DNA of 43,846 nt from Akkermansiaceae bacterium (GTDB lineage: Bacteria > Verrucomicrobiota > Verrucomicrobiia > Verrucomicrobiales > Akkermansiaceae): positions 1 to 43,846 of the forward strand of contig CAIVKO010000010.1 in the NCBI GenBank assembly GCA_903906515.1, in the 5' to 3' direction. A program made the translations under genes and the position numbers. The first letter of the stretch is position 1. Every line of letters starts with the position of its first letter. Below are positions 3,050 through 14,842 of the stretch, piece by piece. A model generated the notes under the pieces. It saw nothing but the letters and a program-made list of their open reading frames with translations. It was not told the origin of the DNA and made no database searches.

Positions 3050-5041
3050 TCAAACGTATGGTATGAAGGCCGTGTACATTTCAGGGGGAATATCCAGCAG
3101 ACTGTAATCCTTGGAGGCGACGAAGAGCAGGCTTTGTTTACCCTTACCTAACAATTCGTTGTCCGATCCGAAAATCTGGTGCTCCAACGTGCAGAACTTG
3201 CGGTTGAAATCCGCGACACGGATTTTCACGGTGATGACATCGAACTCGCGCGCCTCGCGCACGAACTTATGCTCGAAGGATCGCGTGAGGATATAAAAAC
3301 TCGTGGTTTTCAAATCGAAATCCGGCATCACCTGGTTGAAAAACAACTCGCGTGTCTTACCGACGAACAATCCATACATTCCGAAATACACATTGCCCAC
3401 GGAGTTGGTATCCTGATAGGTGGCGATGAACGAATAGACGAACCACTTGCCCTCGAAATGCCCACCGAGCGAGTGAGCGTCCTGCGGTTGAGGGGCCACC
3501 ACGTTGGATGCCGTCGCTGCCGTGGCGGATTTGGTGAGCGCCTTGATGGCGGGGATTTCCGAAGCGGCATCGATCACCTCCCCCGCCCTTTCGGTCACCA
3601 TGCGCAGGAGATCAGTATTGAAAACCAGCCACGCCACATACAACAGCGGCAGCAGTGAGCCGAGCACCAACAGGAAATTGGCACCCGTGCAGTAGCCGAA
3701 GGCAAAGATCACTAACGAAATACTGGCCAGCGAGAACATCCGGATCTGCGGCAGCGGCTGCTGCGAGTTAGGCACGAAACACCGAGCGATCGCCAATGAG
3801 GCATAGCCCACGAAAAACGAGGCGTAAAACACCATGAAATACTCCAGCTCCAGCCTCGCAAGCAAACCGATCAGCGTGATCACCATCACCACCAGAAACG
3901 TCGGAATCGGCGACTCCAACAGACGTTTCGGCAGCATGCCGACGAGAAGATTCTGGCTCTTGCTCAGATTTTGTCCAAGGAACCACTTCAGGGCGATGTA
4001 TCCGCTATCGATCGTTGTCAACGCGCAGATCCCGAGAAATGTGTAATAAGCAGCGGGCAGCAGGCCTTTCGCGTTTGCATCCAGACCATCGATGTATTGC
4101 ACGACCAATTGGTGCGCATAGTGGAACCGATCCAATCCCTCAGCGCCGTATGAATCATGCCAACCCTTGCTCAGCACCCATGCTCCGAGGCATCCGTGGA
4201 AAACGAGCATCAGGAAAAAAATCACACCGCCAAAAAAGTAGCTTGTCCGGATCGAGGTGTTTTCCCGATGGATCTGGATGGCGCGCTGCCAATGTTGGAG
4301 ATCCAACCACGGACCGACCAGAAGGCCGATGAGCAACGGAACCGCATAACCGAACAAATTCGGCCCCTTCCAAGCATCCGCTTTCACCGGCCCCCATTGA
4401 AAGTTCTCAGGGACGAACGGTTTCAAACTGAAAAGCACTACCGCCACGCACACCACGATGATTCCGCCGAACAACGCGTGCCCGAACTTGATGCGCTGGA
4501 TACCAAACTCCTCGCCAAACAAACAGCCGGCGGCAAGAACCACAAAAACCACCATGCACAAATAGAGTGCCGTCATCCCCGGCCCGGTCACCAGATGAAG
4601 CGGCGCAAACAAATACTTGGTCAGCGCGAAAACCGTCAGAGAGAGCGCCACCACTTGATAGAGATATAAAATCAGTCGAAACGGTTTGGCAAATCGGTCG
4701 AAGAAGATCGCCAGGGATTCCTGCCCACCAGCGTGACGGTTAGCTACGATCTGGGTCAGGAATCCAAACAACATCAGTCCCAGCGCGTTGGGAATGGCGA
4801 AGAGCAACAGCCCTTGCAGTCCAAACATGAAGGTCATCTGGACGCTGAAAAAGAGCCCAAGCCCCCACATCCATGCCAGAGCCACCGAGTTTCCCCAAAG
4901 CAGGGCGTTGATTTTACGAAAGTTCATGAAGGGCCAAAGAACCTCGGTTTCACCCCACGGGCAAGCCGGATTCCACCTTAAATCGAACAAATTCCCGTTC
5001 TTCCGCGGAATTAGGAACATGTTTTGGCTCCCACTTGGCAT
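3050..5041 (-). CDS. SSS-like membrane transporter fused to a C-terminal hotdog thioesterase domain
   Basis: This is a 663-residue protein. Residues about 39-470 hold some 12-13 hydrophobic segments and look like a sodium/solute symporter or APC-fold transporter; GPWLDLQHWQRA and ALTTIDSGYIALK resemble the SSS signature segments. A linker (about 471-530) with an Ala/Thr/Val-rich stretch follows. Residues about 531-663 form a 4HBT hotdog domain: YQDTNSVGNVYFGMY then RELFF is the pattern of YbgC-like and enediyne-type (CalE7/DynE) acyl thioesterases, with the conserved Asp/Thr/Asn region present. The start is uncertain: the ATG at 4927 (MNFRKINALLWGN) immediately precedes the first span, and the ATG at 5041 adds 38 residues of plausible cytosolic sequence. 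The gene stands alone and is divergent from the PpiD-like gene. The substrate is unknown. Confidence 0.8.
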   Translation of the reverse strand: MPSGSQNMFLIPRKNGNLFDLRWNPACPWGETEVLWPFMNFRKINALLWGNSVALAWMWGLGLFFSVQMTFMFGLQGLLLFAIPNALGLMLFGFLTQIVANRHAGGQESLAIFFDRFAKPFRLILYLYQVVALSLTVFALTKYLFAPLHLVTGPGMTALYLCMVVFVVLAAGCLFGEEFGIQRIKFGHALFGGIIVVCVAVVLFSLKPFVPENFQWGPVKADAWKGPNLFGYAVPLLIGLLVGPWLDLQHWQRAIQIHRENTSIRTSYFFGGVIFFLMLVFHGCLGAWVLSKGWHDSYGAEGLDRFHYAHQLVVQYIDGLDANAKGLLPAAYYTFLGICALTTIDSGYIALKWFLGQNLSKSQNLLVGMLPKRLLESPIPTFLVVMVITLIGLLARLELEYFMVFYASFFVGYASLAIARCFVPNSQQPLPQIRMFSLASISLVIFAFGYCTGANFLLVLGSLLPLLYVAWLVFNTDLLRMVTERAGEVIDAASEIPAIKALTKSATAATASNVVAPQPQDAHSLGGHFEGKWFVYSFIATYQDTNSVGNVYFGMYGLFVGKTRELFFNQVMPDFDLKTTSFYILTRSFEHKFVREAREFDVITVKIRVADFNRKFCTLEHQIFGSDNELLGKGKQSLLFVASKDYSLLDIPPEMYTAFIPYV

Positions 5042-12744: not shown

Positions 12745-14664
12745 TCAATGCGCGGCGAATATCAAACCCGCCGCCGCGCAGAGGATCGCGATGATCGCTG
12801 CAAACAACGATTCACCCGCCACCAGTCCGGAGGCCAAGGGAATCGAGTAGGCACCGGCGTGACCCGCCGAACGCTTGGCCCACATCCATGCGATGACAGC
12901 ACCGATCGCGAAGCCAAGGCTGTTGGAAAAATCCACCACAAAACCCAGACCCAGTCCCATCGCCGATGGCAGAAAACGGCTGAGGGAGGGTTTCTTCGCT
13001 TCGATGATCGGCAGCACAATGCCGATCATACCGCCGATCAACACCGCCCACATCGAACTGTGCGGTAGCTCGCCCACGCCATTGGCAAGCAGATCCGCCA
13101 TGGCTTTCCACGCGTTGGCCGACGGCATCGGGAAGCGCTTGGTCAGGCTCTCCACGCTCGGCGCGAGCGCATACCAGGCAGGGACTATCGAGAGGGTTCC
13201 GAAGAAAACTCCGGAAAACTGCGCGAGGAATTGTTGCCGCGGATTCGCACCTAACAAATACCCGCTCTTCAGGTCGGTCAGCAAATCCGCCGCGCTGCCC
13301 GCCGCCGATGCGGTGGTGCCCGCTGCCATCAGGTTCACCACCGTATTGTTGCGGGCTAGCATCGCATAGATGAGTTGGGTGACTTTTCCCATCGCGCCAA
13401 CCGGTGTGGTGTCCGCCTCACCCGTCGCGCGGCAGGCCACCAGCGAAAGCACGAAGGACATCGCCACCGCGAACAGACCGAGAACAAAGCCGACGTTGAA
13501 AGCAATTTTCAGCAGGATCACCAAACCAATGGTGATGGGGACCAAGCCAATCCAAAGCCAGGTCATGGGCACTTCAAGGTGCGCGACGGGCGAGACATTT
13601 TTGGAGCCTTTCATCTGGAGCGCACGGACGAGAGTGCGCCACTGCAGGGCGAAAGATGTCAGACTTGAAAACACCATCAGGGACGTACCGCCCCACACAC
13701 CCCAGCGGCGGGGAATCACCTCCTCCATTCCAGGATGCCACATCGATACCTTATAGTCCGCTAGCGACGCAAAGGTGATGTCCTGACTCGTGATGATGGG
13801 AGCCAGCACCACAGTCAACAACACGGAACCCAACAGCATCGAAAGCGCCATCCGGAGTCCGATGATCATTCCCGCACCGATCATCAGCACGCCCGGTTCG
13901 AAACCGAAACCGGAGGAGCGGATTCCGTTAGGCATGAACTTATTGGGAAACGGCAACAGGTCCGGAATCGGCACAACCCTGCTGATCCAACCGGCGATTT
14001 TTCCAAATGTATTATTAGCAAATGTTTCCGCGAGAGATCCCAGGTTTTTCAGGATTCCGAACACACCACCCACCACGATGCCCAGCAAAAGCGAGCGGGC
14101 CTTGCGCATCGCATCCTTGCCCTCAGAATACAGGCTGCGCAGAGTTTCAGCCGCTGCTATCCCGCTGGGAAACGGGAGTTGATCCTGATTGATCATCTGG
14201 CGCTTCATCGGAATCGCTAGAAAAACGCCCAACGATGCTGTTAGGAAAACCATCCCCGCTAAAACCCACCACGGCTGATGATAGCCCTGCACCATGAACA
14301 ATGCGGCGAAGGCGCTGCCCACGGTGCCGCCGGTGGACATGCCGGCGGAACTCGCAGCGCTCGCCATGCAGTTGTTTTCCAGCATCGACATCTGGCTGAG
14401 CCTGCCACCAGTAAGAGTGCGCATGGCGTTCCACAGCACGTAGGAAATCACGCAAGCCGTGATTGCCACACCGAAACCCCAGCCGAGCTTGAGCGTGGTG
14501 TAGAGGTTGGAGACCGAGAGCAGCATCCCGAGAACTCCGCCCGTCAGCACCGCACGCCACGTCAACTGCCGCTGGTGATCTCCCTGATAAACCTCGCGCA
14601 GCCACTTGAGGTCCCGCTCTTCAACATCGGAGAGGGGATTTTTCGCAGTTGTTTCGTCGCTCAT
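12745..14664 (-). CDS. OPT-family oligopeptide transporter
   Basis: This is a 639-residue integral membrane protein with about 15-16 hydrophobic segments. The N-terminal region LTWRAVLTGGVLGMLLSVSN with LYTTLKLGWGFGVAI, then LSQMSMLENNCMASAASSAG and QLPFPSGIAAAETLRSLYSEG, are hallmarks of the bacterial OPT (oligopeptide / YSL-like) family. It is expected to take up small peptides or metal chelates with protons across the inner membrane. The start at 14664 (MSDETTAKNPLSD) is preferred to the extension to 14727. There is a short run of AAAAAACCAAC-like repeats just past the stop (12711-12744). Substrate specificity cannot be told. Confidence 0.92.
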   Translation of the reverse strand: MSDETTAKNPLSDVEERDLKWLREVYQGDHQRQLTWRAVLTGGVLGMLLSVSNLYTTLKLGWGFGVAITACVISYVLWNAMRTLTGGRLSQMSMLENNCMASAASSAGMSTGGTVGSAFAALFMVQGYHQPWWVLAGMVFLTASLGVFLAIPMKRQMINQDQLPFPSGIAAAETLRSLYSEGKDAMRKARSLLLGIVVGGVFGILKNLGSLAETFANNTFGKIAGWISRVVPIPDLLPFPNKFMPNGIRSSGFGFEPGVLMIGAGMIIGLRMALSMLLGSVLLTVVLAPIITSQDITFASLADYKVSMWHPGMEEVIPRRWGVWGGTSLMVFSSLTSFALQWRTLVRALQMKGSKNVSPVAHLEVPMTWLWIGLVPITIGLVILLKIAFNVGFVLGLFAVAMSFVLSLVACRATGEADTTPVGAMGKVTQLIYAMLARNNTVVNLMAAGTTASAAGSAADLLTDLKSGYLLGANPRQQFLAQFSGVFFGTLSIVPAWYALAPSVESLTKRFPMPSANAWKAMADLLANGVGELPHSSMWAVLIGGMIGIVLPIIEAKKPSLSRFLPSAMGLGLGFVVDFSNSLGFAIGAVIAWMWAKRSAGHAGAYSIPLASGLVAGESLFAAIIAILCAAAGLIFAAH

Positions 14665-14842
14665 GCGGAGCGAGAATCCACAGCCAGAGGCGCTTGGCAA
14701 GCCATTGGAGCACGGAGAATGCTGCACGGCCCAGAATGCGGCTGGTTTGCTATGAATTCACCTTGGGGACGGACCGCCAAACGGAAGATGGGCTCAGGAG
14801 CATCGGTGGGCGGCGTTTCAAAAAAATTCCAACCTGTTATGT

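Follow-up and report, generated by a model that had tools for sequence, protein, structure and literature searches.

A predicted LeuT-fold carrier joined to an enediyne-type hotdog thioesterase in one protein of Akkermansiaceae and other bacteria

Introduction

Why a membrane carrier and a thioesterase should be encoded as one protein is the question raised by a gene near the beginning of contig CAIVKO010000010.1 of an Akkermansiaceae bacterium (GenBank assembly GCA_903906515.1), of which we analysed positions 1 to 43,846; this whole stretch of 43,846 nucleotides is called the window below. An earlier note, made from the sequence of the window, had read an open reading frame (ORF) of 663 amino acids (aa) at 3050-5041 on the reverse strand as an SSS-like transporter followed by a hotdog thioesterase domain. 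Our analysis confirmed that the fusion is real, one protein holding a carrier and a hotdog thioesterase with a disordered linker between them. The folds of the domains are known ones and their combination looks undescribed: a full-text literature search, which did not cover most subscription journals, found no paper on a hotdog thioesterase fused to a carrier of the LeuT-fold or SSS kind. The permanent joining suggests that the release of an acid from its carrier molecule and the movement of something across the membrane belong to a single task.

Results and Discussion

Carrier and thioesterase share one conserved reading frame

Both parts were found in a single ORF at 77 of 80 named loci, a single contig scan having kept 80 of 119 matches. 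The three exceptions were two loci cut by contig ends (L070 and L074) and one frameshifted in a single metagenome-assembled genome (MAG; L067), and at five further loci (L037, L082, L085, L093 and L100) that a crude neighbour ORF caller had mis-framed, blastp showed the fusion to be intact. With 77 of the 80 loci intact, a sequencing frameshift or assembly artefact was rejected as the origin of the fusion. The domain pair that the earlier note proposed to look for in other genomes is thus present there as one frame, and its alternative, separate genes elsewhere and a frameshift here, fails for the fused family.

The 663-aa ORF is present in the window and its reading as a transporter plus a hotdog domain was borne out, with a correction to its start. 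Close relatives align only from about ORF residue 37-42 onward, and nearly all of them have an ATG at the place of M39 (MNFRK). Because of this onset and this shared ATG, the gene probably starts at 4927 and encodes 625 aa, which would place the listed start at 5041 some 38 codons too far upstream. Residue numbers below refer to the 625-aa protein that begins at M39 of the listed ORF, which is encoded by a single-copy gene in its own genome.

The named loci with the fusion belong mostly to Verrucomicrobiota and include one in the isolate Luteolibacter pohnpeiensis (L036). Among 59 related genomes, the window's own included, 31 matched: 30 of the 37 that belong to the window's genus, with one match partial and one in the frameshifted MAG, and one of 22 in other families of the order; these counts overlap with those of the named loci (the same assemblies under two names) and were not summed. 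No match was found in a sister genus within the window's family (g18), of which at least 19 genomes were listed. Of 387 genomes sampled from the phylum, own genome included, 10 had the fusion, and seven more matched weakly and in the first part only. The whole-protein profile search of these 387 genomes, which scored at most the three best candidates per genome, gave no close relative in which either part stands unfused. Between-species distances of the two halves correlate strongly (Pearson 0.94 for 27 proteins, 0.91 for the 26 that remain without Methylorubrum), as expected of one inherited unit. Family sequences were cut by match coordinates, and a few carry residues ahead of the start codon.

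Outside the phylum, four of 395 genomes in a Bacteroidota sample matched, three of them with the enzyme part alone and only Apibacter mensalis with the fusion. The Apibacter gene has a guanine-plus-cytosine content of 0.32, close to the 0.30-0.31 of its surroundings, and its linker resembles, by eye, those of two Verrucomicrobiales MAGs (L076 and L078), on which grounds it was probably acquired by gene transfer from Verrucomicrobiales. A fusion was also matched, at 33%, on the megaplasmid of Methylorubrum extorquens AM1, and a plasmid search with this protein gave no further fusion. Because the genome collections were sampled and Alphaproteobacteria chromosomes lay outside the sample, the spread beyond Verrucomicrobiota is a lower bound. 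Two MAGs titled Blastochloris sp. (L077) and Proteobacteria bacterium (L101) carry neighbour genes that cluster with those of Verrucomicrobiota loci, and are probably mis-titled or mixed bins.

The C-terminal half resembles enediyne-type thioesterases

Residues 490-625 match the Pfam family 4HBT_2 (PF13279) with an E-value of 7e-10 and 39.8 bits against a cut-off of 25.5, and all 27 diverse family members matched it at E<=10, the best at 1.8e-13. The best sequence matches in the PDB were CalE7, 5vpj, EspE7, SgcE10 and DynE7. Modelled alone from 25 sequences, the enzyme half was predicted as a hotdog, as the earlier note had expected for the region past residue 520 of the longer frame. The best model reached a predicted local distance difference test (pLDDT) score of 84.9 and the other four averaged 81, 79, 55 and 38, two of the five thus being poor; within the enzyme-only model the active-site loop 509-515 stayed below 50. 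This model superposed about equally well on YbgC (Z 17.0), CalE7 (Z 16.9) and EspE7 (Z 16.6), the first two at ~2 A across 127-129 residues, in agreement with the YbgC/CalE7-like subtype that the earlier note had assigned. The Pfam score, the matches of all 27 family members and the fold match led us to reject a chance similarity of the hotdog part.

Sequence alignment places Asn508 at CalE7 Asn19 and Arg526 at CalE7 Arg37, which we take to be the catalytic residues of CalE7, and structure 9ccr, titled EspE7 R35A, has an alanine at the place equivalent to Arg526. Both of these putative catalytic residues are invariant (26 of 26 sequences, 27 of 27 counting Methylorubrum). Between the 27 proteins the mean pairwise identity of the enzyme half is 0.743, compared with 0.533 for the carrier half; because the enzyme is under stronger constraint and the Asn508/Arg526 pair never varies, we regard the active site as a working one and not a relic.

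The enzyme half is of the enediyne (CalE7) type. CalE7, DynE7, SgcE10 and EspE7 are like it in the hotdog fold and in the signature TN..GNVY.....G..RE with its Asn and Arg; they differ in being separate soluble proteins near an iterative polyketide synthase (PKS), whereas here the enzyme is the tail of a carrier and no multidomain PKS was found in the genome. The fusion marks a setting outside polyketide clusters for an enediyne-type thioesterase. YbgC-type acyl-CoA thioesterases, which have Asp at the catalytic place, share the fold of the fused enzyme, tied with CalE7 at Z 17, and the NCBIfam equivalog model for YbgC (TIGR02799) scored 22.9 bits against a cut-off of 141.35. In both other 4HBT_2 proteins of the window's own genome, which are stand-alone, the Asn position is held by Asp (by eye).

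A plasmid search with the enzyme domain matched 47 records, 44 of them from Streptomyces; the 19 matches listed besides Methylorubrum had 24.8-27.6% identity. The relatives on Streptomyces plasmids are unfused. Three of the plasmid records were inspected: on one the match comes immediately after a gene for a type I PKS, and a nearby gene bears the name enediyne biosynthesis protein; on a second, ~7 kb separate the match from a gene for a type I PKS; the third is without annotation. An enediyne-type thioesterase domain was also seen at the C-terminus of a 2,010-aa PKS-like protein (by eye) of Bacteroidota (L179, 8424-14453).

The N-terminal half has a predicted LeuT fold without SSF sequence similarity

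An AlphaFold model built from 26 sequences had a pLDDT of 78 overall, mostly 80-97 across residues 1-437 and below 50 in linker residues 439-485. The carrier was predicted as a LeuT fold in which we counted 12 helices manually, in keeping with the 12-13 spans noted earlier. The best Foldseek matches were to DUR3 (E 4e-6), which was also the top structure match (Z 29.9, root-mean-square deviation 3.6, 395 residues aligned), followed among SLC5 structures by CHT1 (Z 27.9) and SGLT1 (Z 25.3). SLC5/SSS entries overall spanned Z 19-30 over 387-417 aligned residues, and the lower ones tie with LeuT-fold carriers outside SLC5 (DMT1 24.2, CodB 21.1, MhsT 20.0). The carrier fold thus appears nearest to SLC5/SSS in a model of moderate confidence.

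Sequence comparison gave a different picture, and the earlier description of the transporter as SSS-like held for the predicted fold and not for the sequence. None of 27 family members matched Pfam SSF (PF00474) at E<=10 with the HMMER filters on, and hhalign of the carrier family against the eight SSF proteins of its own genome gave 0.1%, on which grounds membership of SSS by sequence was rejected. Compared with SSS proteins (TC 2.A.21, SLC5; DUR3, CHT1, SiaT, vSGLT), the fused carrier is alike in the predicted core fold and in a Thr-Thr pair in helix 8, and unlike in having no sequence-profile match (27 of 27) and no extra N-terminal helix. Such an extra helix ahead of the LeuT core is typical of SLC5 proteins; here the model begins at the first core helix, its residues 1-8 aligning to residues 45-93 of SLC5 chains. 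The carrier family, which has no Pfam model match, looks undescribed.

Trp, Gly, Asp and Thr residues are invariant in helices 1, 6 and 8, among them Asp209 at the break in helix 6, and of the Thr pair T304 is kept in 25 of 26 sequences (Ser in one) and T305 in all 26. A pair of Ser/Thr in helix 8 defines the Na2 site (PMC7918813), and the Thr pair agrees with this, its placement in helix 8 following from the count of predicted helices. Lys and Arg are more frequent on the loops that would face inward with the N-terminus inside in 26 of 26 sequences (density 0.14 versus 0.07, helix ends set by hand). Because these loops are rich in Lys/Arg and the helices number 12, the hotdog enzyme is predicted to lie on the cytoplasmic side.

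These features also bear on a different function, in which the carrier would take up a small solute, driven by sodium or protons, and the thioesterase would process a thioester made later from that solute or free coenzyme A (CoA) or acyl carrier protein (ACP) trapped on it, the fusion then providing co-regulation and proximity and no coupling. The Na2-like Thr pair, the importers among the nearest folds (DUR3, CHT1, SGLT, SMCT1, SiaT) and an Asp in the sixth helix that suits polar or cationic solutes all agree with uptake. However, if the imported acid served as a nutrient, cleaving its thioester would be futile, and no conserved catabolic genes lie nearby, so that we consider uptake somewhat unlikely.

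A carrier-only branch is paired with a separate gene

The seven weak matches in the phylum sample led to a distant branch in another class, made up of carriers of 387-396 aa without a thioesterase. In hhalign this carrier-only branch matched the fused carrier at 95.3% (E 2e-8) over 350 columns, nearly the full carrier, whereas the control comparison of the branch with true SSF proteins gave 0.1%; the Thr-pair stretch falls in a gap of the alignment between the carrier-only and fused profiles. Directly upstream of the carrier-only gene, on the same strand, lies a gene for a protein of ~200 aa. This partner occurs in 11 of 43 genomes of its order; across 288 genomes of the class the carrier was found in these same 11, the two being adjacent in all 11, from a 4-base overlap to ~40 bp apart. 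A plasmid search with the split carrier gave no match.

Among the members of these two-gene modules that were scanned, neither carrier nor partner had a significant Pfam match; for the partner this holds for six of six members, and its best PDB matches (E 0.8-0.9) were not significant. By hhalign the partner profile matched five DUF4442/PaaI-type hotdog proteins, taken as one set, at 89% (75% to one alone), compared with 0.4% for SSF proteins, 2.2% for the fused hotdog and 0.7% for YiiD_C; between the DUF4442/PaaI set and the YiiD_C set the match was 95%. Comparison of the partner with the profile of the fused protein gave nothing meaningful. The invariant Asn91 of the partner aligns with an invariant Asn of the DUF4442/PaaI set, and Glu106 follows 15 residues on, a spacing seen in THEM2 between Asn50 and Asp65 (PMC6642094). 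The partner is probably a hotdog enzyme of another, DUF4442/PaaI-like subtype. The pairing of this carrier with a hotdog protein seems to have arisen twice and, if the partner is indeed a hotdog enzyme, two such enzymes were joined separately, which would be the strongest hint of a functional link.

The chemistry could also be decarboxylating, acting on 3-oxoacyl or malonyl thioesters while the carrier moves a ketone, acetate or a co-substrate. The title of PDB entry 2w3x calls CalE7 bifunctional, and MadB is described as a malonyl-ACP decarboxylase using Asn (PMC8666670). The fused enzyme likewise has Asn at the catalytic place, where both stand-alone 4HBT_2 proteins of its genome have Asp, and the N-x-N of the split partner is in line with the Mad loop. 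However, the partner matched YiiD_C/Mad at a non-significant 0.7% against 89% for the DUF4442/PaaI set, and a Glu at the THEM2 spacing past the Asn suits a thioesterase. A Mad-type decarboxylase was therefore not supported for the split partner, and decarboxylation, kept as a rival for the system, appears improbable.

The separate carrier bears as well on whether the transporter half transports at all. It might have become a membrane anchor that holds the thioesterase near lipid synthesis, as its greater divergence relative to the enzyme half and the absence of an SSF profile match would allow. Yet the invariant residues in helices 1, 6 and 8 belong to the functional core of the LeuT fold, a single helix would suffice as an anchor, and the carrier also stands alone beside another, probably hotdog, gene; we regard an anchor as quite improbable.

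Around the split pair, no further gene was common to all seven of the 11 genomes that were inspected. Within the stretches inspected, a leucyl-tRNA-synthetase-like gene (by eye) lies upstream of the pair in five of the seven, once directly before it. Two-gene modules of a ~390-aa carrier and a ~200-aa hotdog-like protein were seen at loci L122-L128 and L161-L171.

A tentative role in acyl release and export

Our preferred reading, held tentatively and short of even confidence, is that of a membrane-tethered thioesterase-carrier, which would hydrolyse an acyl thioester at the mouth of the carrier and then export the acid. In this reading the cytoplasmic hotdog domain would cleave acyl-ACP or acyl-CoA where the ion-coupled LeuT-fold carrier opens to the inside, and the carrier would move the freed acid, or a direct product, across the inner membrane. 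Hydrolysis would keep the local acid concentration high, which would lead to a net flow outward. The predicted cytoplasmic position of the enzyme favours this mechanism because acyl-ACP and acyl-CoA are located there; enzyme activity, substrate class, physical coupling and outward direction are what we infer for the fusion protein. The idea of the earlier note that release of an acyl chain could be coupled to its movement gains support from the carrier-only branch beside a probable hotdog gene. A stronger form, in which thioester hydrolysis in its own cytoplasmic domain drives or gates a secondary-active LeuT-fold carrier to which two hotdogs were joined independently, once as a fusion and once in a two-gene operon, we consider unlikely; such vectorial thioesterolysis, the reverse of vectorial acylation, would be a carrier principle new to bacteria.

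Several observations weigh against the export reading. The Na2-like conserved site suggests sodium-driven uptake, the opposite direction, and the invariant Asp209, in the presumed substrate region, speaks more for a cation or polyol as substrate, or for a role in proton coupling, than for a carboxylate. The loop bearing the active-site signature has a pLDDT below 50 in both predictions, so that the active-site geometry is uncertain. Enediyne-type thioesterases release large polyenes from PKS, and no such PKS was found in the genome; an enediyne-like polyene is accordingly an unlikely substrate. No conserved neighbour names a pathway for the fusion, the identity of the partner as a hotdog protein relies on profile comparison with one small set, and a stable fusion is also what plain co-localisation, with no coupling, would produce.

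The principle has precedents. ABCD1 is reported to depend on its acyl-CoA thioesterase activity, described as essential, for transporting the fatty acid that is released (PMC7838297), and Comatose is a further ATP-binding cassette (ABC) precedent of a thioesterase coupled with transport (PMC6642094). Like the fusion, ABCD1 and Comatose combine carrier and acyl-CoA thioesterase in one protein; they differ in being eukaryotic, peroxisomal, ATP-driven ABC proteins with no accessory thioesterase domain and with candidate residues in a membrane helix. Coupling of thioester cleavage to transport is thus documented for peroxisomal ABC proteins, in which there is no separate enzyme domain, whereas in the bacterial fusion, which is conserved in part of a phylum, the carrier and a recognisable thioesterase form domains that can be separated. 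Being separable, these domains make coupling testable by cutting the linker or inactivating one active site.

Other known fusions bear on a sensor role, in which the hotdog would bind an acyl thioester and gate the carrier. Some SSS proteins, CbrA for example, have a kinase or PAS domain attached, and CbrA and MxtR, like the fusion, carry a C-terminal cytoplasmic enzyme on a linker behind an SSS-type carrier, differing in a kinase output and other domains (PMC7918813). SSS-kinase fusions are thus a known pattern, and the long linker predicted to be disordered would suit a sensor; a pure sensor would, however, be free to lose one of the catalytic-type Asn and Arg, which are invariant in 27 of 27 proteins. 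We think a sensor quite improbable.

Coordinates and gene neighbourhoods

Table 1. Parts of the fusion gene and residues discussed in the text, in window coordinates.
Feature	Position	Strand	Basis
Fusion gene, 625 aa	3050..4927	-	Aligned ATG and onset of homology in relatives; longest ORF extends to 5041
Carrier domain, residues 10-437, 12 helices (predicted)	3617..4900	-	AlphaFold, structure comparison, hydropathy and charge
Asp209, break in sixth helix (GPWLDLQxWQRA), invariant	4301..4303	-	Family alignment and model
Thr304-Thr305, eighth helix (TTIDS), candidate Na2 sodium site	4013..4018	-	Alignment and predicted helix
Linker, residues 438-489	3461..3616	-	Low model confidence; variable in length and sequence
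Hotdog thioesterase domain of the 4HBT_2 family, residues 490-625, enediyne (CalE7) type	3053..3460	-	Pfam, PDB matches, model
Asn508 in YxDTNSVGNVYF, aligned to CalE7 Asn19	3404..3406	-	Alignment; invariant
Arg526, aligned to CalE7 Arg37 and to the Ala of EspE7 R35A	3350..3352	-	Alignment; invariant

As the earlier note had stated for the adjacent genes, no acyl, fatty-acid or polyketide gene was found among the 10 window proteins scanned with Pfam (positions 31 to 21669). Five of the 10 had Pfam matches at E<=1e-4: a FAD oxidoreductase, OPT, URO-D, MFS and TPR. The OPT-family oligopeptide transporter lies at 12748-14727 on the reverse strand, adjoined on the same strand by the URO-D-like and MFS carrier genes.

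Across 81 fusion loci no acyl pathway was seen among the neighbours, whose families were each named from Pfam on one example. The commonest were SurA-like (29 loci) and IspH/LytB (28), followed by GH75-like (14), sigma-54 (5) and MoeB-like (3). At the 14 GH75 loci, most of them titled Spartobacteria or Chthoniobacter, the GH75 chitosanase domain belongs to a lipoprotein-like gene located downstream of the fusion and on its strand (e.g. L090, 6827-8317). In Apibacter mensalis (L081, 5001-6872) a set of HlyD/ABC-2 exporter genes lies upstream of the fusion and on its strand. On the Methylorubrum extorquens AM1 megaplasmid (L111, 19245-20790), where flanking genes were called by third-position GC content (GC3), genes for a LuxR-type regulator and a LuxI-type autoinducer synthase lie ~5.5-7 kb downstream of the fusion, separated from it by two long ORFs without a Pfam match. 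LuxI enzymes use acyl-ACP, and the proximity may be due to chance.

The window's own genome, a draft in 265 contigs that is 96% complete, gave four ketosynthase matches with a longest frame of 481 aa and no multidomain PKS. One of its contigs (C140; L199, 3451-9408) carries dehydratase-like, FabG-like and nitroreductase-like genes and two tandem ketosynthase genes, adjoined by two radical-SAM-like genes, all named by eye except the ketosynthases. This aryl-polyene-like pathway, unlinked to the fusion, could supply ACP-bound substrates.

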